From Streptomyces humi (GTDB taxonomy: Bacteria; Actinomycetota; Actinomycetes; Streptomycetales; Streptomycetaceae): a stretch of 64,000 nucleotides of DNA. The notes under the pieces are model-generated. The model worked only from the letters and a program-made list of their open reading frames with translations. It was not told where the DNA came from and did not search any database. The position numbers and the translations under genes are program-made. This document shows, one piece after another, positions 52,155-63,777 of the stretch. The number at the start of each line of letters is the position of its first letter. The stretch's first letter is position 1. The stretch spans positions 1-64,000 of the forward strand of contig NZ_LBMU02000016.1 of assembly GCF_001005085.2 (NCBI RefSeq), given 5' to 3'.

Positions 52155-52511
52155 ATGGCAGAGTTAGATGCTGAGGAGAAGTGGCTCCAAGACCGGCGAG
52201 CCGCTATTGCGGGCATCCTCGGGCAGACAGCTACGGCGACCGATGCACCTGAAGCCGCAGCCGACGGCAGTAACAGACGCGGAAGGCACGACCGCAGTCG
52301 TAAAAGTGGAGCGACCATGGCAGCTATCGCTGGAGTCCTGCCCAACGTCTTCGCTACACGCCCCCAGCCCACTCGTTCAAAGCGTTGGCTGTCTCCTGAA
52401 TGCATGTGTCGAGCAACCCGCTCAGTCCCTCGAAGTCGTACGCAGGAAAGTATTGAGGCCCAAGACCAAAGACCGGCTGCCCTAGGTCCACCCGCGCAGT
52501 ATCAGCACTAG
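52155..52511 (+). pseudogene. Continuation of the RHH gene beyond an amber codon
   Basis: In frame with 51939-52121. After TAG the codons read TLTDETVQQKA then MAELDAEEKWLQDRRAAIAG ILGQ, a coiled-coil tail natural for this kind of protein. An ATG at 52155 could allow reinitiation. Beyond about residue 45 the sequence becomes Arg/Ser-rich, and it then runs antisense into the convergent gene starting at 52354. The 3' end is thus probably also altered. Confidence 0.5.
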
Positions 52512-53463
52512 GCAGCAGGTTGTAGTGCATCAAGGTGTTTCGAAAATGCCGCACGGAACGGTCCGTGATAACGCGGCCAGCGGGCGCAGCCAGGATATTT
52601 TCGATCACTGCGGTTGACGCCGAAGACAGCGGGTAGCGAGCGTCATCCTTGAGAAGTGCGAGACTCTGCAACACCGCGTACACGGTGATGTACCGAATCT
52701 TGAACACAGTGTACTCAAGGTTGAGAACGTCAGCACCGGCCGTGATGACCTTGTCGATGAAGTTCATCATTACCTGGAAGTCTGTCAAGACACCATTGAG
52801 CGCCTCGGTTGTGCTGCCGTTGAAAGCCCGTGGGTAATAGCCCGAAGCCCGCACGTCCTTCCGCTTCACGAAGTTCCCTGAAAGATGACGGACGAAGGTA
52901 TCGCCACCGGTCGCATCGAGACGGGCGCCAAGCCGGTAGAAACATCGACCGACCTGCTCATTGGTGCCGCGCACATACGCACCATCGTCGTTGCGAAAAA
53001 TCCTTTCATGCTCGATTCCAAGATGGAAGGCAGCAGAATGAGAAGTCGCGAGAAGAGTGCCTCCGTAGGTGAAGAGCCCCAGATCCTTCTCCCACCGACG
53101 AGCAGGCGGGAACCATGTGTTCCCAAGGAAATGCGCGGAATGCTTGTCCAGGATGTCGTTCTTGAAGAACTCCAACTGCCCCTCAATACCTCGTTGGGTA
53201 TCCTCGAAGAGCTTGAGACTGTGCCTCGCGCGCGCACTCACTGCGGCAGCGTCTGCGGAGAACTCATCGAACACCGATGGGTCAATCACCTGCGGCTTCC
53301 CCTTCACCTCGTGAATGATCAGCGAGAAGTAAGGGGCCATACACAACGGCACGACGCCAAACAGGTTCGAATCATTGGCGTTCTGAAGGTCACGAAACAA
53401 GCGGCCCATGTAGTCGGCGTCACTCACGATACCAGCCTTGATGACGTCATCGTTTACGGACAC
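52354..53463 (-). CDS. Unknown protein with HEPN-like RxxxxH motif
   Basis: 369 aa from GTG 53463, which has AAGGAGG five bases upstream. No domain is recognised over most of its length. Near the C-terminus HFRNTLMHYNLLP gives R308-x4-H313 in helical context, the catalytic pattern of HEPN ribonucleases. The gene follows the CBASS effector by 108 bases on the same strand and is the last of four co-directional genes. A toxin or accessory role in defence is inferred from context only. Confidence 0.65.
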   Translation of the reverse strand: MSVNDDVIKAGIVSDADYMGRLFRDLQNANDSNLFGVVPLCMAPYFSLIIHEVKGKPQVIDPSVFDEFSADAAAVSARARHSLKLFEDTQRGIEGQLEFFKNDILDKHSAHFLGNTWFPPARRWEKDLGLFTYGGTLLATSHSAAFHLGIEHERIFRNDDGAYVRGTNEQVGRCFYRLGARLDATGGDTFVRHLSGNFVKRKDVRASGYYPRAFNGSTTEALNGVLTDFQVMMNFIDKVITAGADVLNLEYTVFKIRYITVYAVLQSLALLKDDARYPLSSASTAVIENILAAPAGRVITDRSVRHFRNTLMHYNLLPSADTARVDLGQPVFGLGPQYFPAYDFEGLSGLLDTCIQETANALNEWAGGV

Positions 53464-53571: not shown

Positions 53572-54216
53572 TCACCTTTTACCTACGAATGGACTCGCAT
53601 GGTTAAAGCTATCAGCGGCAAGAGCAGAACCGGAACTTCCGTAACGCTCAGGCGACCATTCAGTAAAACGCAATTCGCCATCCGTTCGCCGATCAGTAAA
53701 ATACGCCCCTTCGAGGCCCTCACCAGGCTGCGAACCGATGTACACCTCAGCTGCGCCCTTGTGTCGCTCACTACGGTCACGCACACCGGGGCGAGGAGTA
53801 TTGACATATTGCCAACTCAGTCGCCACCGACCGTCAGGATCAGGGATGAGTTTGGCATGCTCCGAGATTGACTTCGACTCCCCAGTGAAAAGCGTGACAG
53901 TCCACTTAGACGCCGACTGCGAGACGTATACAACCGTGGGAATTGGAGGCACGTTAGTACCATCCGGGCGAACGTAAGAAGAGACGAGTTCGCCACGCCA
54001 TGTCCCGGCAATCAATGGTACGCCCGTGAAGTACCTCACCAGTTTCCACTTCCAGATGAAGCGCTCCCACAAAGCAAACACCAGCACAGCGAGCGTTCCG
54101 GCGATCGAATAGATGCGCAACGGTGTTTGAGAGAGGCCTTGGCCTGCGAGTAGCGCCAGCGCCAATCCGACAAGCGCCGCAATGCCGATCCCTACTCGAA
54201 CCTTGATTCCTTCCAT
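53572..54216 (-). CDS. cap15: CBASS effector, Cap15-like (2TM plus beta-barrel)
   Basis: 214 aa from ATG 54216, overlapping the CD-NTase stop (ATGA). Two membrane spans at about 8-27 and 34-50 are followed by a basic turn (RFIWKWKLVRYFTG). A beta-strand-rich domain then opens with IAGTWRGELVSSYV near 69-82, with VVYVSQSASKWTVTLFTGES and WRLSWQYVNTPRPGVRDRSE further on. This is the S-2TM/beta effector layout of CBASS, where nucleotide binding to the barrel causes membrane disruption. Assignment rests on topology, motif and coupling to a CD-NTase. Confidence 0.85.
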   Translation of the reverse strand: MEGIKVRVGIGIAALVGLALALLAGQGLSQTPLRIYSIAGTLAVLVFALWERFIWKWKLVRYFTGVPLIAGTWRGELVSSYVRPDGTNVPPIPTVVYVSQSASKWTVTLFTGESKSISEHAKLIPDPDGRWRLSWQYVNTPRPGVRDRSERHKGAAEVYIGSQPGEGLEGAYFTDRRTDGELRFTEWSPERYGSSGSALAADSFNHASPFVGKR

Positions 54217-55121
54217 CAGTTCAGCCCCAGGTTCCGCCACGCTTTGAGTGCAAGTTCGTGAGCATCTTCCATAGACCACTTCTGTCCAGGACCGAACAAC
54301 GGCTTGATGCCGTTCGGCTCATGCCAGTCTTTCGCAGAGCCTCCCGGCTTAGTCTGATTCCAGATGTAGCCAATGACGGCACTGATGTCATCGGTCAGCG
54401 GCGTCAGACCTCCATGGTTAAAGTGCCCGTCCGGCGTGCAGTACACAAGACATTCCATGAAGTAACTCGGCAGCGCATCAATCTGCCCAGCTGCAACCAG
54501 GTCGTTTTCCACTCGCTTGAGAATACGGACCATTTGCTTGTAGCGCGTACCCGTACGGTTGTTCTTAGCAACGCCATTGTCATACTGCTGCTGAGGGTAG
54601 TTAATAACCCACTCGCCGTTTGTGCGCCACGTCTTCGTACCTTCGCGGTATGCCACTTTCCCAAGGGTGTCGTAATGGTAGTAGCGGTAACGGAAGGACG
54701 GCACCACATCCGCCTTAACTCGCCCGCCATTCTCGGCAATCTCGATAGCCGTGGTACCGGACGTGTCGCAGTCACTTCCGTACGCATGGCGCATAGCTTT
54801 TTCAAGTTCAGACCGGAAACCTGGACCATCGAAATGCTTGATGGCCACCGAACCGTGAATCTTGTCAGCCTCATACAAAGCACTATCGTCGTAGTAGAAG
54901 AATCCCTCATGAATCACGGCGATATCGACATCACTGTCAGTTCGCACGTTGGTGTTGTTCTTGTAGGACCCCTTGGGCAGGAAGCTGGTACGGATGTCGT
55001 TGAAGCCGCTCCATCCGTTGACCGCATTGCGCACCATGCGCTCGGCTCGTTCCTGTTTATCCTGTTCGGTATTGCTGGACGGCGCCTTGTAGCGCGTCAG
55101 CTTGTCTTCCAGTGCTGTCAT
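54216..55121 (-). CDS. CBASS cGAS/DncV-like nucleotidyltransferase (CD-NTase)
   Basis: 301 aa from ATG 55121 with AGGGG upstream; a TTG two codons earlier is unlikely. Active-site signature G51-S52-Y with D64-V-D66 in RTDSDVDIAV, and third acidic residue D138 in VKADVVPSFRYR. The C-terminal half is helical, with GHFNHGGLTPLTDDISAV. It makes a cyclic oligonucleotide on phage infection that activates the Cap15-like partner. No Cap2/Cap3 or HORMA/TRIP13 genes are nearby, so this is a type I CBASS. The product nucleotide cannot be told from sequence. Confidence 0.9.
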   Translation of the reverse strand: MTALEDKLTRYKAPSSNTEQDKQERAERMVRNAVNGWSGFNDIRTSFLPKGSYKNNTNVRTDSDVDIAVIHEGFFYYDDSALYEADKIHGSVAIKHFDGPGFRSELEKAMRHAYGSDCDTSGTTAIEIAENGGRVKADVVPSFRYRYYHYDTLGKVAYREGTKTWRTNGEWVINYPQQQYDNGVAKNNRTGTRYKQMVRILKRVENDLVAAGQIDALPSYFMECLVYCTPDGHFNHGGLTPLTDDISAVIGYIWNQTKPGGSAKDWHEPNGIKPLFGPGQKWSMEDAHELALKAWRNLGLN

Positions 55122-55299
55122 AGCCAACCCCTGTTCTTACATTTACTGCATGTCGCGAGCTGCCTCATACGCCACAGCCCCACGATCTTCGTACCCTGCA
55201 CCTCGACACGCTAGCCGGTGACACTGACAATCACTCACGCTCCGTCAGGCTCGGGGCAGACAAAGGGAGTAGAGCACCCACACTCCTGACCGAACGTGA

Positions 55300-56418
55300 T
55301 CACTTCTGTCGACTGGTGACCGTGCGCATCTCCCCCTCCAGCACCCACACGAACGCCACGCCACCCTTGGGGAACGTCCCGCCCTCGTAAGCGACTTCGA
55401 CGCTCGGTGACGGATCCGATGCAGCAAGCGCGGTGTACCGCGCCTGACGTGGACCAGAGTGGTAGTCCAAGACGTTCATGTAGCGGATACCGCAATCGCC
55501 GTACCAGAGTTCAGCCCGGAAGTCCTTGGTCGGCTGGGCGAGGTCAAGGTGCAGGACATGTCCGTGCTGTTGGACGAGCACGCGGTAGGTGTACGAGACG
55601 GTGACCGGCTCCCCGGCCTTCACGTCGCCGCCGAGGCTCACCGCGAAGACCTGGCCCTCCTTGCGGACGCTGCGCCGAGGCGTCTGCGCCTTGCCGTTCA
55701 CGGCGACTTGCACCAGCTCGAAGACTTCGGGCGACGAGGCGTTGTGGCCGTCTATGGGTTCGAAGTACCACGTGGCCGTGGACGACGGGTCGGCCAGAAG
55801 CTCCCGGTAGGCGTCAAGGTCGGAGACGCAGGAGAAGCGCAGCAGCGGACTGGTCGGCACGAAGCGGTACTCCCACCGGACAGTGGCGACGAACATCGCG
55901 CCTCGGCCCTCCGTCGGCCCCTGCTTCCAGGGCGCGAGCGATACCGCAACATGGGCATCCTCCCAGCGCTGCTTGGCCCCGAAGATCTGTTCCCGGAGGT
56001 CCTGATAGGCGTCGGCGGCCAGTTCCTTGTCACCGAGCCGAATGGACAGGCAGTTCTCGACGATCCGGTCGAGGGTCTTCGTGGAGGCCACGTTCGTCAG
56101 GGACTCCGGCGAGAAGGCGAAGCCGTCGACCACCGCGTCCCGGATGGCTGGCGCTTCCTCCGAGAGCACCTTGCGGAGGCGCTGGTTTGCTCGAACCTCA
56201 GCGTCGGCTTGGTCGATGTACTCAAAGAAGATCGCGATGAGGCCGGTGGTGAAGAGGGCCGAGCCGACCTCCATCGCGGGAAGTGCGTCAAGCCAGGCGC
56301 CGGCGGGGCTGCCGCTCGCCCAGTGGGCCAGGAGCATTAAAGCTATACCGACCACCGTGACGACGGTGGCGAGCAGGGCGAGTTTGGTCTGGTAGAGGCG
56401 CTCTAACGGACTAGCCAT
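55300..56418 (-). CDS. Unknown two-span membrane protein upstream of CBASS
   Basis: 372 aa from ATG 56418. Spans at about 12-33 (KLALLATVVTVVGIALMLLA) and 48-68 (EVGSALFTTGLIAIFFEYID) are followed by a charged helix and a long cytoplasmic region of predicted beta character from about residue 190. No family is recognised. It is co-directional with the CD-NTase, 178 bases upstream. It may be an accessory or separate defence gene. The bound two-span anchor plus beta domain echoes the Cap15 layout without obvious sequence similarity. Confidence 0.72.
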   Translation of the reverse strand: MASPLERLYQTKLALLATVVTVVGIALMLLAHWASGSPAGAWLDALPAMEVGSALFTTGLIAIFFEYIDQADAEVRANQRLRKVLSEEAPAIRDAVVDGFAFSPESLTNVASTKTLDRIVENCLSIRLGDKELAADAYQDLREQIFGAKQRWEDAHVAVSLAPWKQGPTEGRGAMFVATVRWEYRFVPTSPLLRFSCVSDLDAYRELLADPSSTATWYFEPIDGHNASSPEVFELVQVAVNGKAQTPRRSVRKEGQVFAVSLGGDVKAGEPVTVSYTYRVLVQQHGHVLHLDLAQPTKDFRAELWYGDCGIRYMNVLDYHSGPRQARYTALAASDPSPSVEVAYEGGTFPKGGVAFVWVLEGEMRTVTSRQK

Positions 56419-56469
56419 ATACAAGATCAAGTATAAAAAAAGCCCAGTTCAGAGCAATGCCGAACATGC

Positions 56470-56508
56470 GAAGACCCCGGACCGCAGGAGATGCAAGCCG
56501 GGGTCTTC
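56470..56508 (-). terminator. Hairpin after the small peptide gene
   Basis: GAAGACCCCGG pairs with CCGGGGTCTTC (11 bp, 17-base loop) just downstream of the 13-aa peptide. A run of seven T on the minus strand lies about 30 bases further (56434-56440). Confidence 0.6.
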
Positions 56509-56524
56509 TTGGGGCACGGGGCTA

Positions 56525-56566
56525 TCAGCCGCCGGTACCGCCACCACCACCGTTGTTGCGCAGCAT
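56525..56566 (-). CDS. Candidate 13-aa glycine-rich peptide
   Basis: ATG 56566 to TGA encodes MLRNNGGGGGTGG. A perfect AGGAGG Shine-Dalgarno ends eight bases before the ATG, stronger than those of most genes here. A hairpin follows. It is divergent from the controller-like gene across the repeat array. The function is unknown: it could be a leader peptide, a signalling or toxic peptide, or chance. Confidence 0.45.
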   Translation of the reverse strand: MLRNNGGGGGTGG

Positions 56567-56614
56567 GACCACCACCTCCTCCGTGCTGCGGGAGCTACCT
56601 ACGCGAGGCAGCAT

Positions 56615-56687
56615 AGGACACATAGTCATGGGATGCAGAGAGTTGGGATATATAGTCTCTGGATCTTGAGGCTTGGGACATATGAGC
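56615..56687. promoter_or_regulatory. Three 30-bp-phased direct repeats, putative controller operators
   Basis: GGACACATAG at 56616, GGATATATAG at 56646 and GGACATATGA at 56676 are spaced exactly 30 bases (about three helical turns). They lie immediately upstream of the XRE gene and between it and the divergent peptide. Probable autoregulatory boxes; the sequence also holds TATATA-like promoter elements for either direction. Confidence 0.6.
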
Positions 56688-56698
56688 TAGGGCTCGCC

Positions 56699-56959
56699 AT
56701 GGCAAAACAGCCCATCTCAGACGCCGCCCAGACCTTTGGGGCGCGGGTGCGCGCCCGCAGGAACGAACTCGGTAAGAGCCAGGAACGCCTTGCCGACGAC
56801 AGTGGTATGCACTGGACGTTCATTGGGCAGGTCGAGCGCGGCCAGCGCAACGTGAGCCTGCACAACATCCTGAAGCTGGCTGAGGCACTCGGGGTGGATG
56901 CGGCGGAGCTGGTACGGGGGCTGAAGTCGCCGGGCGAGGCCGGGAGCAGTAAGGACTGA
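56699..56959 (+). CDS. XRE-family protein resembling restriction controller (C) proteins
   Basis: 86 aa from ATG 56699. The whole protein is one helix-turn-helix domain: FGARVRARRNELGKSQERLA, GMHWTFIGQVERGQRNVSLH, NILKLAEALGVDAAEL. The VERGxRNxSLxNI end and the small size match C proteins of restriction-modification systems. It starts downstream of phased repeats and ends eight bases before a nuclease gene, the usual C-R arrangement. It presumably times or represses expression of the nuclease. Confidence 0.82.
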   Translation: MAKQPISDAAQTFGARVRARRNELGKSQERLADDSGMHWTFIGQVERGQRNVSLHNILKLAEALGVDAAELVRGLKSPGEAGSSKD

Positions 56960-56966
56960 GGGCGGC

Positions 56967-58589
56967 ATGAAGAACAGGGTCGACTGGACCGACGAGCGAC
57001 TCGGCTCCAATGTCTACGAGGACATGGTCTCCGTCCTCATCAGTCGCCTGCATCCGCAGGCCCAGCGCATCGACGGAGCGGGCGGAGACAAGGGGCGTGA
57101 CGTCCAGGTACCGCTCCCTACGGGCCTGGAAATCTTCGAACTCAAGAGCTTTACCGGACGCCTTGATGAAAGGTCCGGCAGAAGACGGCAAGTTTCCGAC
57201 TCGCTCAGAAATGCGGCCAAGCACAACCCCGTGGCTTGGTACCTCGTGGTGCCCATCAATCACACTGATGGCGAACTCAAGTGGTTCAATGATCTGGCTG
57301 CCAAGTATCCGTTCCCCTGTATCTGGCATGGGAAGGATTGGCTCGATGGGCAGATGGCCTCCCACCCGGAGCTGCCCCGTTATTACCTAGAGGGCAGCAA
57401 CGACGAGATCGTTGGCATGATGCGGGAGATTAACCAAGAGCAAGCAGCCCTTACCCGAGGGGTTACGGATCTAATAGATCGCGTGCGCACGCTCAAGGAT
57501 CGTCTCAACTCCCTCGATCCGCATTACGAGTTTAGCTTCAGCATCCAACCCAACGGATCTGTCAACATCACAACTCATCCCCGATACTCTGGCGCCGAGA
57601 AGGATCGCCCCATTCAGGTCGGTGGCGTATTTACCTTCCCCGACACTGAGGACGGGAAGCAGGCCGCACAGGCACTTCAGGACAGTTTCGACTATGGCAC
57701 AGCCACGGTTGTTCCAAGCGAGTTCGTGAAGAATTTTTCCATCGATGCGCCTGCCGAGTTTGGCGGAAACTTCGATGGTGGTGAACTTCGCGTCGGCGGT
57801 GCCATTGACAACACCCCGCTGGCAGACGCACGGTTCGCCCTCCGTATTCGGGATGCCCAAGGGGCTATCAAAGCTCACCTCCCACTCGAAGCCAAAGAAC
57901 GGACATCTGGTAGGAGAGGCATCGAGCTGAAGCTCGAAGACCTCGGCGGCGTAGCGAAGGTTGTGACGCGGTTCGACGTGTCTACACATCACGCCAAGAT
58001 CAACTATTCGTTCCACATGCCCGACCGCAGCCTGCCCTGCATCCTGTTGCCAGTCGTCCGTTTTCTAGCAGAGGCGAAGGAGGGCCGTGGCGCGACCTTG
58101 GTGCTTAATGGCAAGGAAATCGGTCCGCCAATGGATCTACCCGCCTCAACCCCAAACGTTGAGGAGTCACTCAAACTTCTTCGCGTCCTCGACGACATTC
58201 AGCGCATCAGCGGCGTGTACTTCCCGATCCCCCAGTCCCTGACTGATGAAGAATTTGAGTCGATCAAAGAAGTGCACCGGTATCTAACCAGCGAGACAAA
58301 CATCGAGCGATGGGATTACGTGTCTTTCACGATCCCGCGGGCAAGTTTGGATAGCCCCGAGCTTCAGCAGCTCCAACAGGGTGACAGCGTCCCCAACCTT
58401 GTTCTACGGAATGAACTAGTCCTTCGCTTGGGCGAGGACATCTTCAACCTTGGATGCCTCAACAGGACGTACGCCTCGGCAAAACTGGAATCCCTGACCG
58501 ATGTTGCCGATGACTCTGGCGCTGCCGATATGGTTGCCGTGAAGATCGTGCCCGGCGACGACACGTCTGCCTCGGTTTCTCTTATGTAG
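56967..58589 (+). CDS. Mrr-like nuclease-fold protein with large unknown C-terminal region
   Basis: 540 aa from ATG 56967. The N-terminal 65 residues have the PD-(D/E)xK pattern: E18 in NVYEDMVSVLISRL, D45 in GGDKGRDVQV, and E58-x-K60 in EIFELKSF. An alpha/beta stretch to about residue 120 (AWYLVVPINHTDGELKWFND) completes a restriction endonuclease-like domain. The following 400 residues are mostly beta strands with no recognised family, perhaps a sensor. It is coupled to the controller-like XRE gene. No methyltransferase is in the element, so self-protection must work otherwise. Confidence 0.75.
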   Translation: MKNRVDWTDERLGSNVYEDMVSVLISRLHPQAQRIDGAGGDKGRDVQVPLPTGLEIFELKSFTGRLDERSGRRRQVSDSLRNAAKHNPVAWYLVVPINHTDGELKWFNDLAAKYPFPCIWHGKDWLDGQMASHPELPRYYLEGSNDEIVGMMREINQEQAALTRGVTDLIDRVRTLKDRLNSLDPHYEFSFSIQPNGSVNITTHPRYSGAEKDRPIQVGGVFTFPDTEDGKQAAQALQDSFDYGTATVVPSEFVKNFSIDAPAEFGGNFDGGELRVGGAIDNTPLADARFALRIRDAQGAIKAHLPLEAKERTSGRRGIELKLEDLGGVAKVVTRFDVSTHHAKINYSFHMPDRSLPCILLPVVRFLAEAKEGRGATLVLNGKEIGPPMDLPASTPNVEESLKLLRVLDDIQRISGVYFPIPQSLTDEEFESIKEVHRYLTSETNIERWDYVSFTIPRASLDSPELQQLQQGDSVPNLVLRNELVLRLGEDIFNLGCLNRTYASAKLESLTDVADDSGAADMVAVKIVPGDDTSASVSLM

Positions 58590-58657
58590 CCGTACCACTC
58601 CCGAAGCAGTGGTCGCCCTCTGTCGGCCGTCGGACCGACCGCTCTACGCTTTCCACC

Positions 58658-59473
58658 ATGGCAACTACAGACGTGAGCGTCCGCACCCTCGACGGTCTCC
58701 ACCTGGCGGGCACGCTGGTGACGCCGGAGCAGCCAACCTCCCGGGCCGTGGTGCTTGTACATGGCGGAGGCGTCACCCGCGAAGAGGGCGGATTCTTCAC
58801 GCGGCTCGCTGACGGGCTGGCCGATGCGGGCGTTGCGTCCCTGCGTTTCGACCTCCGCGGCCACGGCCAGAGCGAGGGTCGTCAGGAGGACCTCACGCTC
58901 TCCAGCATCCTGAACGACATCCGTGTCGTGCTGGCCTACCTCCGTGAGGCAACCAGCGCGCGGGAGCTGTCCTTGCTCGGCACGAGCTTTACCGGGGGCG
59001 CGTGCGCCTACTACGCGGCCAAGCAGCCGCAGGAGATCACGCGGCTGGTGCTCTTCAACCCGCAGCTCAACTACAAACGGCGGACCATCGACAACCGGCC
59101 GTTCTGGGTGGACGATCACCTGACCGACGAAGCCGCCGCCCAGCTCGCCGAACAGGGCTACCTGCCGCATTCGCCGACGCTGAGGCACGGGCGGGCCATC
59201 TACAACGAGGTGTTCTGGCTCCGGCCCCATGAGGCGCTCGGCGAGGTCCAGGCCCCGACGCTCATCGTGCACAGCACCAAGGACACGTTCGTACCGGTGG
59301 AGGCGTCCCGGAAAGCAGCACCGCTGTTCCAAGCGCCTTGCCGACTGGTGGAGATCGAGGGCGCACAGCACGGCTTCGCGGTCCACGACGATCCGCAGTA
59401 CCTCGACCCCCAGAGTCAAGAGTGGCAGGCGTTCGTCATCCGCACGACGGCCGACTGGCTGGTCGAACCCTAG
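58658..59473 (+). CDS. Alpha/beta hydrolase
   Basis: 271 aa. VVLVHGGGVTREEGGFF oxyanion region near 28, FDLRGHGQSEGRQED near 65, nucleophile elbow LLGTSFTGGAC near 106, acid region HSTKDTFVPVE near 207, and catalytic His in EGAQHGFAVHDDP. The elbow reads GTSFT rather than GxSxG. Substrate unknown. The stop TAG at 59471 lies in CCTAGG, whose palindrome also supplies the stop of the convergent TPR remnant. Its codon use is closer to that of the chromosome than to that of the neighbouring defence genes. Confidence 0.85.
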   Translation: MATTDVSVRTLDGLHLAGTLVTPEQPTSRAVVLVHGGGVTREEGGFFTRLADGLADAGVASLRFDLRGHGQSEGRQEDLTLSSILNDIRVVLAYLREATSARELSLLGTSFTGGACAYYAAKQPQEITRLVLFNPQLNYKRRTIDNRPFWVDDHLTDEAAAQLAEQGYLPHSPTLRHGRAIYNEVFWLRPHEALGEVQAPTLIVHSTKDTFVPVEASRKAAPLFQAPCRLVEIEGAQHGFAVHDDPQYLDPQSQEWQAFVIRTTADWLVEP

Positions 59474-59975
59474 GCCCGCAGCGCTTCACGCAGCTCGCGG
59501 GGGCCGGGCCGCGTCGCCCAGGGCTGGAGCGTAGTCATGGCCCGGGTCAGCTCCCGCTTGGTCCGCAGTGAGTTGGTGGCGTCGGACAGCTCGACGGCAG
59601 CCAGACCAACGCTCGCGGCGTCATCCGGTTGTCCAGCCAGCGCCAGGGAGCAGGCGCGCCGAGCTAGGAAATAGCCCTGGTCACGGCGAGACAGGGCGTC
59701 ACCTTCCAAGACTGTGCCGTACAGGTTGGCGGCCCGTGCTGGCTGTCCTGCCTCGATGTAGCAACTGGCCGTCTGGAGCGTCAAGTTGGCGCGGTTGTAG
59801 TGCGGGCTAAGGTGCGGGGCAGTGTCGTCGCTCGCCCCCTCGTGCTGCGTAAGCAACTGGTGAGCCTCGCCCAATGCGCGTTCTACGTCGTCCATCGGGT
59901 CACCGAGCATGGCGAACCCCCGCGCCTGCTGCTGAGCAAGGGCCTGCCGCTCAGGCGGCTGTCCTGGCAGCCCCC
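59470..59975 (-). pseudogene. C-terminal remnant of a TPR-type transcriptional regulator
   Basis: The open frame encodes WGLPGQPPERQALAQQQARG then about 146 residues of TPR-like helices (YNRANLTLQTASCYIEAGQP, RRACSLALAGQPDDAASVGL) ending TRPGPRELREALRA. This matches the tail of Streptomyces XRE-TPR regulators of about 400 aa. The N-terminal HTH part is missing. Homology stops at about 59975, exactly where a divergent truncated gene begins. Confidence 0.7.
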
Positions 59976-61025: not shown

Positions 61026-61877
61026 ATGAAGTGCAACGACATAGCGAGCTTGCTTGAAGCGCTCTCCGAGCGCGATCTAGCCATCCTTGAATCATTGCGC
61101 GTACACCGCGCACTGACCACCATCCTTATCCGGCGGCTGCACTTCCCGATTGGCGGTGAGCCACGGGAAGTGGGTAGCGGCAAGAGTCATGCAACGGAAA
61201 TGGCCGCCGCTGTTGCCACTATCCGAGTTCTGACTCGGTTGGAATCACACCGCCTGATCGCCCGGCTGCACCGCCGCATTGGCGGAGTGCGAGCAGGAAG
61301 CACCGGCATTGTGTGGCAGCTCGGCGCGAGCGGTGAGCGACTGCTGCGTGCCCAGCACGGTGACACTGCCCGGCGGCGCTACAGCGAGCCGTCACCAAGC
61401 TTCGTCGCCCACACATTGGCAAGTGCTGATCTTGCAATCCAGCTCCAGGAGCTGGCCCGTGCGGGAGCGATCGAGCTGCTGCGACTTGAAGCTGAGCCGG
61501 AGTGTTGGCGGACGTTCCTGTCAGCGCACGGCGCACGAGCCTGGCTCAAGCCCGACCTGTTCGCCATTACGGCCGGCGGAGACTTTGAACACCACTGGTT
61601 CATCGAGACCGACAACGCCACCGAGCACGCGCCGGTGATCGTGCGCAAGGCACTCCAATACCAGCAGTACGCCGCAACCGGCACGCACCAGCAGGCACAC
61701 GGACTGTTCCCGATCGTGGCGTGGGTGGTGCCCGATTCCAAGCGGCAAGCAGCCATCCGGGCAGCGTTGGAAAGCGAGCCAAAGTTGCGGGACCTTGCGG
61801 CCGACAGAATGTTCCAGGTGGTGACGACCAAGGAATTTCCGGGGCTTATCACCGGCACTGGCCAGGCCAGCCCGTAA
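61026..61877 (+). CDS. Replication-relaxation family protein
   Basis: 283 aa. An N-terminal winged-helix-like region (LSERDLAILESLRVHRALTT, IRVLTRLESHRLIARLHRRI) is followed by FVAHTLASADLAIQLQELAR and a nuclease-like KPDLFAITAGGDFEHHWFIE segment. This matches the Replic_Relax family encoded on actinomycete plasmids and integrative elements. An exact role in plasmid-like replication or DNA relaxation is not established. It lies directly upstream of the integrase. Confidence 0.85.
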   Translation: MKCNDIASLLEALSERDLAILESLRVHRALTTILIRRLHFPIGGEPREVGSGKSHATEMAAAVATIRVLTRLESHRLIARLHRRIGGVRAGSTGIVWQLGASGERLLRAQHGDTARRRYSEPSPSFVAHTLASADLAIQLQELARAGAIELLRLEAEPECWRTFLSAHGARAWLKPDLFAITAGGDFEHHWFIETDNATEHAPVIVRKALQYQQYAATGTHQQAHGLFPIVAWVVPDSKRQAAIRAALESEPKLRDLAADRMFQVVTTKEFPGLITGTGQASP

Positions 61878-61890
61878 ACGGGCTTGGCCT
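61864..61890 (+). terminator. Hairpin after replication-relaxation gene
   Basis: AGGCCAGCCCGT pairs with ACGGGCTTGGCCT (one bulged T) around AA, overlapping the stop codon. Moderate support, with no U-run. Confidence 0.55.
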
Positions 61891-61974
61891 GCCAAAATGG
61901 CCCTCGGCAATTGGCCATAACGGAGTTACTATGGGGCTACCAAAACAGTAATAGCACCAGGAAAGGAGAATGTA

Positions 61975-63777
61975 ATGCCTTCTCGGACATCAAGTAAGCA
62001 CCGCGAAGAAGTTGCAGTGAAGCGGGCGGTTCTATACCTGCGCGTTTCGTCCAAGCGTCAGATGGACACCGACGCAGACTTCGACCCCGGGGGCAACTCG
62101 ATCAACACGCAGCGAAAACATGCGCTGCAAAAAGCCAAAGAACTCGGAGTTGACGTCGTCGACGAGTGCGTCGAACCAGGAAACTCGGCAGTAACCATCG
62201 CCAAGCGGCCAGTTTTTCGCCAGATGCTCAAACGCATCACCGAGCAGCGAGACGTCGATTGCGTCATCATCTACATGCGCTCACGCGTCTTCCGAAACTA
62301 CATCGACGCCGCCATCACCAAGCGGCAGCTTGAGCAGTTCGGCGTCAAGTTGGTGTCCACCAAAGAGAACTTCGGCGATGGCGATATGGCCGAGGCCATG
62401 GAGGCGGTAACCGATGTTTTCAACTGGCTTGCAGTCCGCCAAAGCGGCGAGGACGTCAAGACCAAAATGGCCAACAAGGCTCGCAACGGCGGCACGATCA
62501 CCCGCACCCCTGTCGGGTACCTGAACACCATCGAACTCGTCGACGACCGCAGGGTTCGCACCGTCGCCGTCGATGCTGTACGCGGCCCCTTCATCCGCCT
62601 GGCGTTCGAGCTGTATGCCACCGGTGAGTACACCGTGGAAGAAGTGGCGCAGGAACTGTACGACCGTGGGCTGCGCATGCCCCGCAACGCCCGGCACCCC
62701 GAAGAACGGGGGATCTCCACCAACCGACTGCACGTCGTCCTGCGCGACGACTACTACTGCGGCTGGATCACCCACGAGGGCGAGAAGTACAAGGGGCGTC
62801 ATACTCCCCTTGTCCCGCAAGACCTCTTCGACCGCGTACAGGAGATCGCCGACTCCCGAAACAACGCTCGTGAGAGACGGCGCGTGCATCACCACGAGCT
62901 GAAGGGTTCGCTGTTCTGCGGCTCCTGTCGTCGCCGCCGAGGCGAACAGCGCCGCATGATCGTCCAGCACGCCACCAACCGGAACGGCGACGTCTATCGG
63001 TACCTCTTCTGCAACGGCCGCTTCGATCACATTTGTGAGCTGCCGTACGTCCCGATCGAACAGGTCGAGGAAGCCGTCGAAGACCACTACGCCACAGTGC
63101 GCTTCACACCAGAGTTCATCTCTGCCATGCGCTCGCATCTGACCGCCATGGTCGACGAACAACAGACCACGACCAAGCTCCTCCAAGCCCAGCTCACGAA
63201 ACAGCTTCGTGCGCTCGACACCAAGGAGAGCAACCTCATCGACCTGGCAGCCGACGGCGGCCTGCCCCAGGGCAAGATCAAGGCCAAGCTGCGAGACATC
63301 ACCAAGCAGCGGGATCGCCTGACGACCCGGCTCCACGACGTCGACGAAGACCTCAGCACAGGAGCAGAGATCATCGAGACGTGCTTGCAGCTTCTGCAAG
63401 ATCCGCAAGCGTTGTACCGGCGCTGCAACGATCAGCAGCGCCGCCGGCTGAACCAGGCGCTCTTCGAGGCGCTGTACATCGACGAGGACTTGGACGGCAA
63501 CGTTCGGGTGGGCCACAAGCTCAAGGAGCCGTTCAACGCCCTGCACGCGGCCCAGAGCCAACACCAGGCCCCCACTGGACCGCCGCAAGCCCCGGCCACC
63601 CTCCAAGCTGTCCTACCGGCCCCCAAACGCCAAAGCGCCCCTCCCCAGCCGGGGACGGGCGCTGGCCTGCAACTAACAGGGGCCGCCCTGGTGGGCGGCC
63701 CCTGGAAGGTACCGGGTTCCAATGAACTTCTTATGGTGGGCGATACTGGGTTCGAACCAGTGACCTCTTCGGTGTGA
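61975..63777 (+). CDS. Large serine recombinase (integrase) with att core inside its 3' end
   Basis: 600 aa from ATG 61975, with GGAAAGGAG upstream. Resolvase domain with catalytic Ser25 in YLRVSSKRQ and arginines in IIYMRSRVFRN. Recombinase domain with NKARNGGTITRTPVGYLN and HVVLRDDYYCGWITHEGEKY. Zinc ribbon (LFCGSCRRRR ... YLFCNGRFDHICEL) near 312-350, then a coiled coil. From about residue 515 it is Pro/Ala-rich. Codon 63733 enters the att core, and the last ten residues (TGFEPVTSSV) are read from the antisense of host tRNA-Val. It integrates and excises the element. Its C-terminus changes with integration state. Confidence 0.93.
   Translation: MPSRTSSKHREEVAVKRAVLYLRVSSKRQMDTDADFDPGGNSINTQRKHALQKAKELGVDVVDECVEPGNSAVTIAKRPVFRQMLKRITEQRDVDCVIIYMRSRVFRNYIDAAITKRQLEQFGVKLVSTKENFGDGDMAEAMEAVTDVFNWLAVRQSGEDVKTKMANKARNGGTITRTPVGYLNTIELVDDRRVRTVAVDAVRGPFIRLAFELYATGEYTVEEVAQELYDRGLRMPRNARHPEERGISTNRLHVVLRDDYYCGWITHEGEKYKGRHTPLVPQDLFDRVQEIADSRNNARERRRVHHHELKGSLFCGSCRRRRGEQRRMIVQHATNRNGDVYRYLFCNGRFDHICELPYVPIEQVEEAVEDHYATVRFTPEFISAMRSHLTAMVDEQQTTTKLLQAQLTKQLRALDTKESNLIDLAADGGLPQGKIKAKLRDITKQRDRLTTRLHDVDEDLSTGAEIIETCLQLLQDPQALYRRCNDQQRRRLNQALFEALYIDEDLDGNVRVGHKLKEPFNALHAAQSQHQAPTGPPQAPATLQAVLPAPKRQSAPPQPGTGAGLQLTGAALVGGPWKVPGSNELLMVGDTGFEPVTSSV
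63678..63703 (+). other. Hairpin inside the integrase 3' end
   Basis: A perfect 11-bp stem AGGGGCCGCCC / GGGCGGCCCCT with loop TGGT, 30 bases before the att core, in coding sequence. It could attenuate readthrough toward the att site or act in excision. There is no U-run. Confidence 0.6.
63734..63743. other. Right attachment core within tRNA-Val 3' end
   Basis: TGGTGGGCGA, the complement of the terminal tRNA bases TCGCCCACCA. Just outside each core, on the element side, are GTTCCAATG (left of this core) and CACTGGAAC (right of the left core). They would form an imperfect inverted repeat centred on the core in attP, as expected for serine-integrase dimers. Confidence 0.8.

Follow-up and report, generated by a model that had tools for sequence, protein, structure and literature searches.

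In attenuators of the trp/his type, a short ORF with a codon run is followed by a hairpin upstream of a gene. Very small ORFs also encode type I toxin peptides, and in a C-controlled restriction-modification (R-M) system the tiny peptide W.PvuII is described as a modulator of a protein encoded there. Here we describe a mini-ORF that partly resembles each of these. It lies in a stretch of 64,000 nucleotides (the window) contained in a 10-Mb genome whose closest named relatives are Streptomyces, and is located between a gene for a protein with two putative membrane spans (hereafter 2TM) and a divergent gene for a controller-type helix-turn-helix (HTH) regulator (Table 1). As with W.PvuII, a tiny peptide would be encoded in a controller-regulated locus; in contrast, the presumed partner of the peptide is here a membrane protein. 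None of the titles listed in the literature searches describes the peptide.

Table 1. The mini-ORF and the features around it (positions in the window).
Feature	Position	Strand	Basis or remark
2TM gene	55300..56418	-	two long N-terminal helices and a beta-rich domain
TATACT, likely -10 box of 2TM gene	56430..56435	-	consensus only
Terminator-like hairpin	56470..56508	-	two 11-nt arms, 17-nt loop; compensatory changes in relatives
Mini-ORF MLRNNGGGGGTGG	56525..56566, stop included	-	sequence and relatives
Shine-Dalgarno (SD) AGGAGG	56575..56580	-	8 nt 5' of ATG
Regulator-to-mini-ORF intergenic region, TCCCA-type repeats	56600..56698	.	repeats by eye; likely regulator operator
TATGCT, candidate -10 of mini-ORF transcript	56610..56615	-	by eye, consensus only
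XRE/controller-type HTH regulator	56699..56959	+	PADLOC Control_protein 2.4e-18; divergent

The mini-ORF extends over 13 codons on the minus strand, from the ATG at 56566 to a TGA that ends at 56525, and encodes a Gly-rich peptide of 13 residues; a perfect 11-bp inverted repeat (56498-56508/56470-56480) lies 16 nt 3' of its stop. The initial annotation had described this succession of AGGAGG, an 8-base gap, ATG, MLRNNGGGGGTGG, TGA and an 11-bp hairpin, divergent from a controller gene, and had judged the quality of the signals to exceed chance expectation. All of these elements are indeed present at that place, and the HTH gene, which begins at 56699, runs in the opposite direction. The comparison with chance also holds: on both strands of the 64-kb window, the mini-ORF is the sole ORF of the type AGGAGG, 4-10 nt, ATG, 6-25 codons. 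Random sequences (n=60; first-order, with the dinucleotide composition of the window, not exact shuffles) contain on average 0.48 such ORFs, none of which has a hairpin of at least 9 bp within 80 nt. The folding of the 211-nt mini-ORF region is ordinary (z-score -1.23; 22 of 200 shuffles fold equally well or better), and a stricter sigma-70 scan of positions 56200-57000 flags no promoter.

The mini-ORF recurs among relatives. An SD-led, Gly-rich mini-ORF of 7-36 residues occupies the same place at 19 of the 23 2TM loci with a complete gene start, while none is seen in the other four (L024, L099, L100, and L101). Loss of the ATG or SD in related loci had been put forward as refuting the peptide; both are retained at these 19 loci, which are spread across several genome families of the class. 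The 23 loci come from 20 genomes, with two loci apiece from G080, G307, and G418. They leave out 2TM matches that are broken or lack the start (L027, L028, G108, G222, G181, G369, G594, G578, and G554), as well as a third, partial match in G418. L031 and L104 are counted as L020 (contigs of equal length), and L032 as L025 (identical identities and mini-ORF); L002, L030, L063, and L117 are the L017 locus; L098, cut by a contig end, is kept with its gene start present. When mapped on a tree computed from the 2TM proteins of all 23 loci, the root of which serves drawing only, mini-ORF presence takes three changes, perhaps a single gain plus two losses. As 96 of 500 shuffles give values as low, clustering is not significant.

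The 2TM protein matches 7 of 295 genomes of the genus, and class-wide the 2TM alignment finds 15 genomes out of 394. Matches obtained by searching the family to which G418 belongs (8 of 35 genomes) and the order to which G307 belongs (1 of 13, G307 itself) add no genome to the class-wide result. Searched against genome contigs, the 2TM protein yields 11 loci, nine of them with a complete gene start, and the mini-ORF is found in eight of these nine. At the DNA level, 16 of 199 genus genomes give a match: the genome itself, one clear relative (G080), and 14 with short matches (up to 60 nt). A scan of these 16 loci shows the mini-ORF only in the window and in G080, where it encodes MVHGNGGGGGTGGG and is followed by the hairpin. 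No match was obtained in plasmids with three 2TM queries or with the 321-nt mini-ORF region, in phages with one 2TM relative, in viral contigs with alignment A2, or by sequence in the PDB with the same alignment.

The peptides of relatives are MVHGNGGGGGTGGG, MLHGNGGGGGTGG, MLRASGGSGGTKR, MLRANSGGGGGTGG, MAHGNGGGGGTGGG, MLFVNGSGGSGGTGR, MLFVNGSGGSGGAVR, and MLHAKGNGGGGGDTKR, along with MLHANGGGGGTKR, MTKILSGGGGGTRA, MTLRSGGDGGGGGGTGG, MTKLRGGEGGGGGTGG, MTARLTVHGGDGTGGGSSG, and MTAQLTRRGGEGGGGGTGG; the shortest, MTGGEGS (7 residues), is found at two loci. By eye, 17 of the 19 are short and Gly-rich, without any hydrophobic stretch, and the two longer ones (L091 and L092) start with MSGGG and have a hydrophobic tail. 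The likeness to type I toxins is confined to the very small size of the ORF and to these two tails, and does not extend to a membrane-spanning segment in the other 17 peptides.

Codons were compared in 15 of the 19 mini-ORFs (all except L091-L094). In their aligned Gly core, codon positions 1 and 2 are nearly fixed (a few contain Ser or Thr), whereas two or three states occur at position 3. Nine mini-ORF pairs, which share sequences and hence are not independent, differ 16, 17, and 31 times at codon positions 1, 2, and 3, respectively, with 22 synonymous and 25 non-synonymous changed codons. The core is thus under constraint as an amino-acid sequence, and the flanks are loose. Replacements only are found in the close pairs window/L018 and L022/L023. 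Such replacements between the closest relatives, together with very short length and low complexity, could be expected of a chance ORF in a spacer between promoter and terminator, but given its rarity, recurrence, core constraint, and spread over several genome families, we consider this extremely unlikely. By its signals and its recurrence, the mini-ORF looks like a self-standing micro-gene, of predicted translation, and we are highly confident that it is a real gene.

The mini-ORF is followed, 13-30 nt from the stop, by a perfect-stem hairpin in 17 of the 19 loci; no perfect stem of at least 7 bp was found downstream of the two long mini-ORFs. Across 10 aligned relatives, changes on both sides keep the pairing in 4 of 15 pairs and 99.3% of the cells are paired, the structure being derived from the same alignment on which it was scored. 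These both-side changes, and the shortness of a unit enclosed by the promoter region and the hairpin, might indicate that the product is an RNA (a regulatory small RNA, or one that insulates the divergent promoter) which the ORF would simply protect. However, the constraint on the core acts at the codon level, and in distant loci the hairpin arms differ in sequence at a like position, which points to the behaviour of a plain terminator. Moreover, Rfam gives no match at the gathering level in 54000-59500 (the only sub-threshold match, to a miRNA family, is at 55246-55358). An RNA product thus appears quite unlikely. RNAalifold also predicts, besides the terminator-like hairpin, an SD/post-stop helix and intra-ORF helices. 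A T-tail scan does not flag the 11-bp hairpin of the window, so that 'terminator' is a name we infer for it. In 61 genus genomes, the covariance model R1 finds its own locus and only two other hairpins, one behind a groEL-like gene (L070) and one next to a stretch that resembles a tRNA (L071, by eye); as 52 candidates were scored per genome, absence of R1 elsewhere is weakly shown.

The order of ORF, hairpin, and gene in these 17 loci is also that of an attenuator, and a leader acting on the 2TM gene was among the readings of the initial annotation. In such a case, ribosomes translating the Gly codons would gate transcription past the hairpin into this gene in cis, possibly by sensing charged tRNA-Gly. 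In agreement with such a leader, 12 of the 19 mini-ORFs have at least five consecutive Gly codons, and 112 of the 125 GGN codons in all 19 are GGC or GGT (71 GGC, 41 GGT, 9 GGA, and 4 GGG). However, the run is interrupted or shorter in the other seven, being broken by Ser, Thr, or Glu in L019, L022, L023, L097, L093, and L094, and no such stem is seen after the two long ORFs. Judged by sequence only, the start region of the 2TM gene also seems to differ from that expected of an attenuated gene. Between the hairpin and the 2TM start, a -10-like hexamer is flagged in 21 of the 23 loci; the corresponding place in L093 reads CACAAT, and L099 has none. In L101, CATAAT is closest to the start and the flagged hexamer lies elsewhere. 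No SD-like motif precedes the 2TM start at any of the 23 loci, and a read-through mRNA would therefore probably be poorly translated. The block before the 2TM start is much alike in L024, which has neither mini-ORF nor regulator. The mini-ORF and its 2TM neighbour appear to form two separate transcription units, which argues against a leader; the terminator-like hairpin, followed by a -10-like box and an SD-less start, lies between them, and we regard cis control as unlikely. By eye, CAAGATC and GATCTTG flank the -10-like box of the 2TM gene, shortly before its start, in L095 and L096; GATCTTG persists in the Streptomyces loci, and a possible operator is thereby suggested.

On the other side, an HTH gene is divergent from 18 of the 19 mini-ORFs. 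Such a C-type regulator with a divergent promoter region is shared with C-protein R-M loci, and in L034-L036 the regulator is divergent from an apparent methyltransferase gene (by eye), which stands where the mini-ORF stands here. R-M loci differ in that this place is taken here by an ORF of 7-36 residues, and no methylase family is found among eight neighbouring proteins of the window. The peptide might serve the regulator, as a co-factor or signal, instead of the 2TM protein. In favour of this, L024 and L099, which have no mini-ORF, also have no HTH match in the flanks searched, and in L100 and L101, likewise without mini-ORF, the HTH gene is downstream on the 2TM strand. In addition, L033 retains the regulator and a core, MNGGGGGT (in a longer frame, the stop being lost), next to a RES-domain gene, with no 2TM match and at best a weak trace of the 2TM start.

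Several observations oppose a regulator partner. The regulators fall into three classes with unlike operators (assigned by tblastn and operator sequence, the operators by eye): relatives of the window regulator at 59% identity or more (13 loci, window included), a second class (L019 and L091), and a C-box class (L092-L094). The peptide core is common to all three. In L090, the mini-ORF and 2TM gene have no adjacent C-type regulator, only a larger gene about 1.8 kb away with an HTH-like start (by eye). Between L019 and L020, the regulator stretch is 55.4% identical and the mini-ORF itself 70.5%, compared with 93.8% for orf442, 90.2% for the stop-to-2TM stretch, and 87.6% for 2TM. This is, judging from these identities, a natural swap in which the regulator was exchanged and the block from mini-ORF to 2TM retained. 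With the regulator as query, 30 loci were retrieved, and the scan finds a Gly-rich mini-ORF at only four (window included), all with 2TM. Apart from L033, the other 25 have none; they are at most 60% identical over the matched part (L050 has no match), and as such distant relatives they provide a weak control. In 11 genomes searched with R1, every match (E up to 1) in which the scan sees such an ORF belongs to a 2TM locus. This test is one-sided, since the scan missed the known ORF of L120 (G538, locus cut by a contig end) and the model has no match in G378 and G399. A search of 246 genomes at 1e-15 with the regulator of class b, run with no positive control, gives no match, and in viral contigs the regulator matches two distant loci (36% and 46% identity) where the scan finds no Gly-rich mini-ORF. 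A role for the peptide with the regulator is doubtful, and the mini-ORF seems to track the 2TM gene more than the regulator. The initial annotation had proposed to look for the peptide beside homologous controller-nuclease loci; its conservation follows the 2TM gene more than the controller-nuclease pair.

Downstream of the 2TM gene lies a CBASS pair (53572-55127, minus strand) composed of a CD-NTase (PADLOC Cyclase, 3.1e-116; also matched, below the family cut-off, by the NCBIfam anti-phage nucleotidyltransferase DS2_2) and the two-span effector Cap15 (PADLOC 2TM effector, 7.6e-69; Cap15_CD_rec, 7.2e-15), followed by a 368-aa ORF with no Pfam or PADLOC family (52354-53463). CD-NTase and effector genes are thus present as in CBASS with Cap15, but as neighbours only. 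The mini-ORF and 2TM are not regular parts of CBASS, as relatives of the pair adjoin 4 of the 23 2TM loci (window, L018, L023, and L090, some flanks being cut by contig ends), and those in L090 are diverged (44% and 38% identical). L090 (5541-8293) is a second, diverged 2TM copy of G080, with its own mini-ORF, and precedes these CD-NTase and Cap15 relatives. Behind the regulator, a 540-aa ORF (orf540; 56967-58589, plus strand) has no Pfam family and a weak PADLOC match to PDC-M58A; it matches 23 plasmid records, with 25-34% identity in the eight listed. This regulator-side cargo varies, being orf540, orf442, a HEPN/RES gene (L033), or none evident on the regulator strand (L095). In L033 and L103, the same kind of regulator region precedes the HEPN/RES-domain gene in place of orf540. 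The locus resembles a defence island whose cargo can be exchanged, with regulator, mini-ORF, and 2TM as its more stable core. Farther along (61026-63777, plus strand), a Replication-relaxation family gene is followed by an apparent large serine recombinase gene (by eye); the two may belong to a mobile element integrated close to the island.

The 2TM protein of the window belongs to no family in Pfam, PADLOC, or NCBIfam. NCBIfam, run on 10 proteins, returns no family for it or for the two long peptides, and one other 2TM relative has a chance-level match (0.18). The N-terminal helices of the window protein were judged membrane-spanning by eye. In a model built from 23 sequences (mean pLDDT 75), the helices are of low-to-middling confidence, and the beta domain (approximately residues 148-360) is mostly confident. 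A structure search with this predicted model suggests that the beta domain resembles the N-terminal domain of M1 aminopeptidases. The 50 matches listed have Z-scores of 10.3-12.0 and rmsd of 3.2-3.9 over 145-176 aligned residues, mostly within model residues 147-360. The best match listed is a Legionella putative nutrient-binding protein, and an oligosaccharyltransferase subunit, which we take to be ribophorin I/Ost1, is also among them. Foldseek, used with an earlier, poorer model, gave TM values of 0.12-0.31. A shared M1-type fold by itself shows no function; that the beta domain binds a peptide is a speculation.

The recurrence of the mini-ORF just upstream of the 2TM gene suggests that the peptide may be the partner of the 2TM protein. 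We tentatively favour, as a realistic possibility, an independently transcribed microprotein that acts in trans on this membrane protein; the hydrophobic tails in L091 and L092 fit a membrane partner. In this model, the divergent regulator would control the promoter of the mini-ORF, and the peptide, made at a high rate, would most likely bind the 2TM protein and hold it inactive. A drop in new synthesis (for example, upon phage shut-off) would then deplete the peptide, which would be short-lived, and set the 2TM protein free. The sign could be opposite, with the peptide activating 2TM; both sign and trigger are guesses. An immunity-like role, one of the readings of the initial annotation, is possible and is the lead that we prefer. 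A broader proposal, which we hold to be improbable, is that Gly-core microproteins of as few as seven residues form a family of cognate ligands, either keepers or triggers, for membrane defence proteins of a new class, with two spans and an M1-N-domain-like soluble fold; when host synthesis halts, loss of the peptide would set off the membrane protein.

If translated, these ORFs of 7 to 36 codons, at a constant place beside the same neighbour, would rank with the smallest genes that have a transcript of their own and recur across bacterial families, and the usual length limits of gene finders would overlook them. The mini-ORF suggests a likely partner for a membrane protein of actinobacterial defence islands that is still uncharacterised. 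With it, one could ask directly whether so few residues suffice for a peptide to control a membrane effector, and the pair may as such be a testable new small-protein system.
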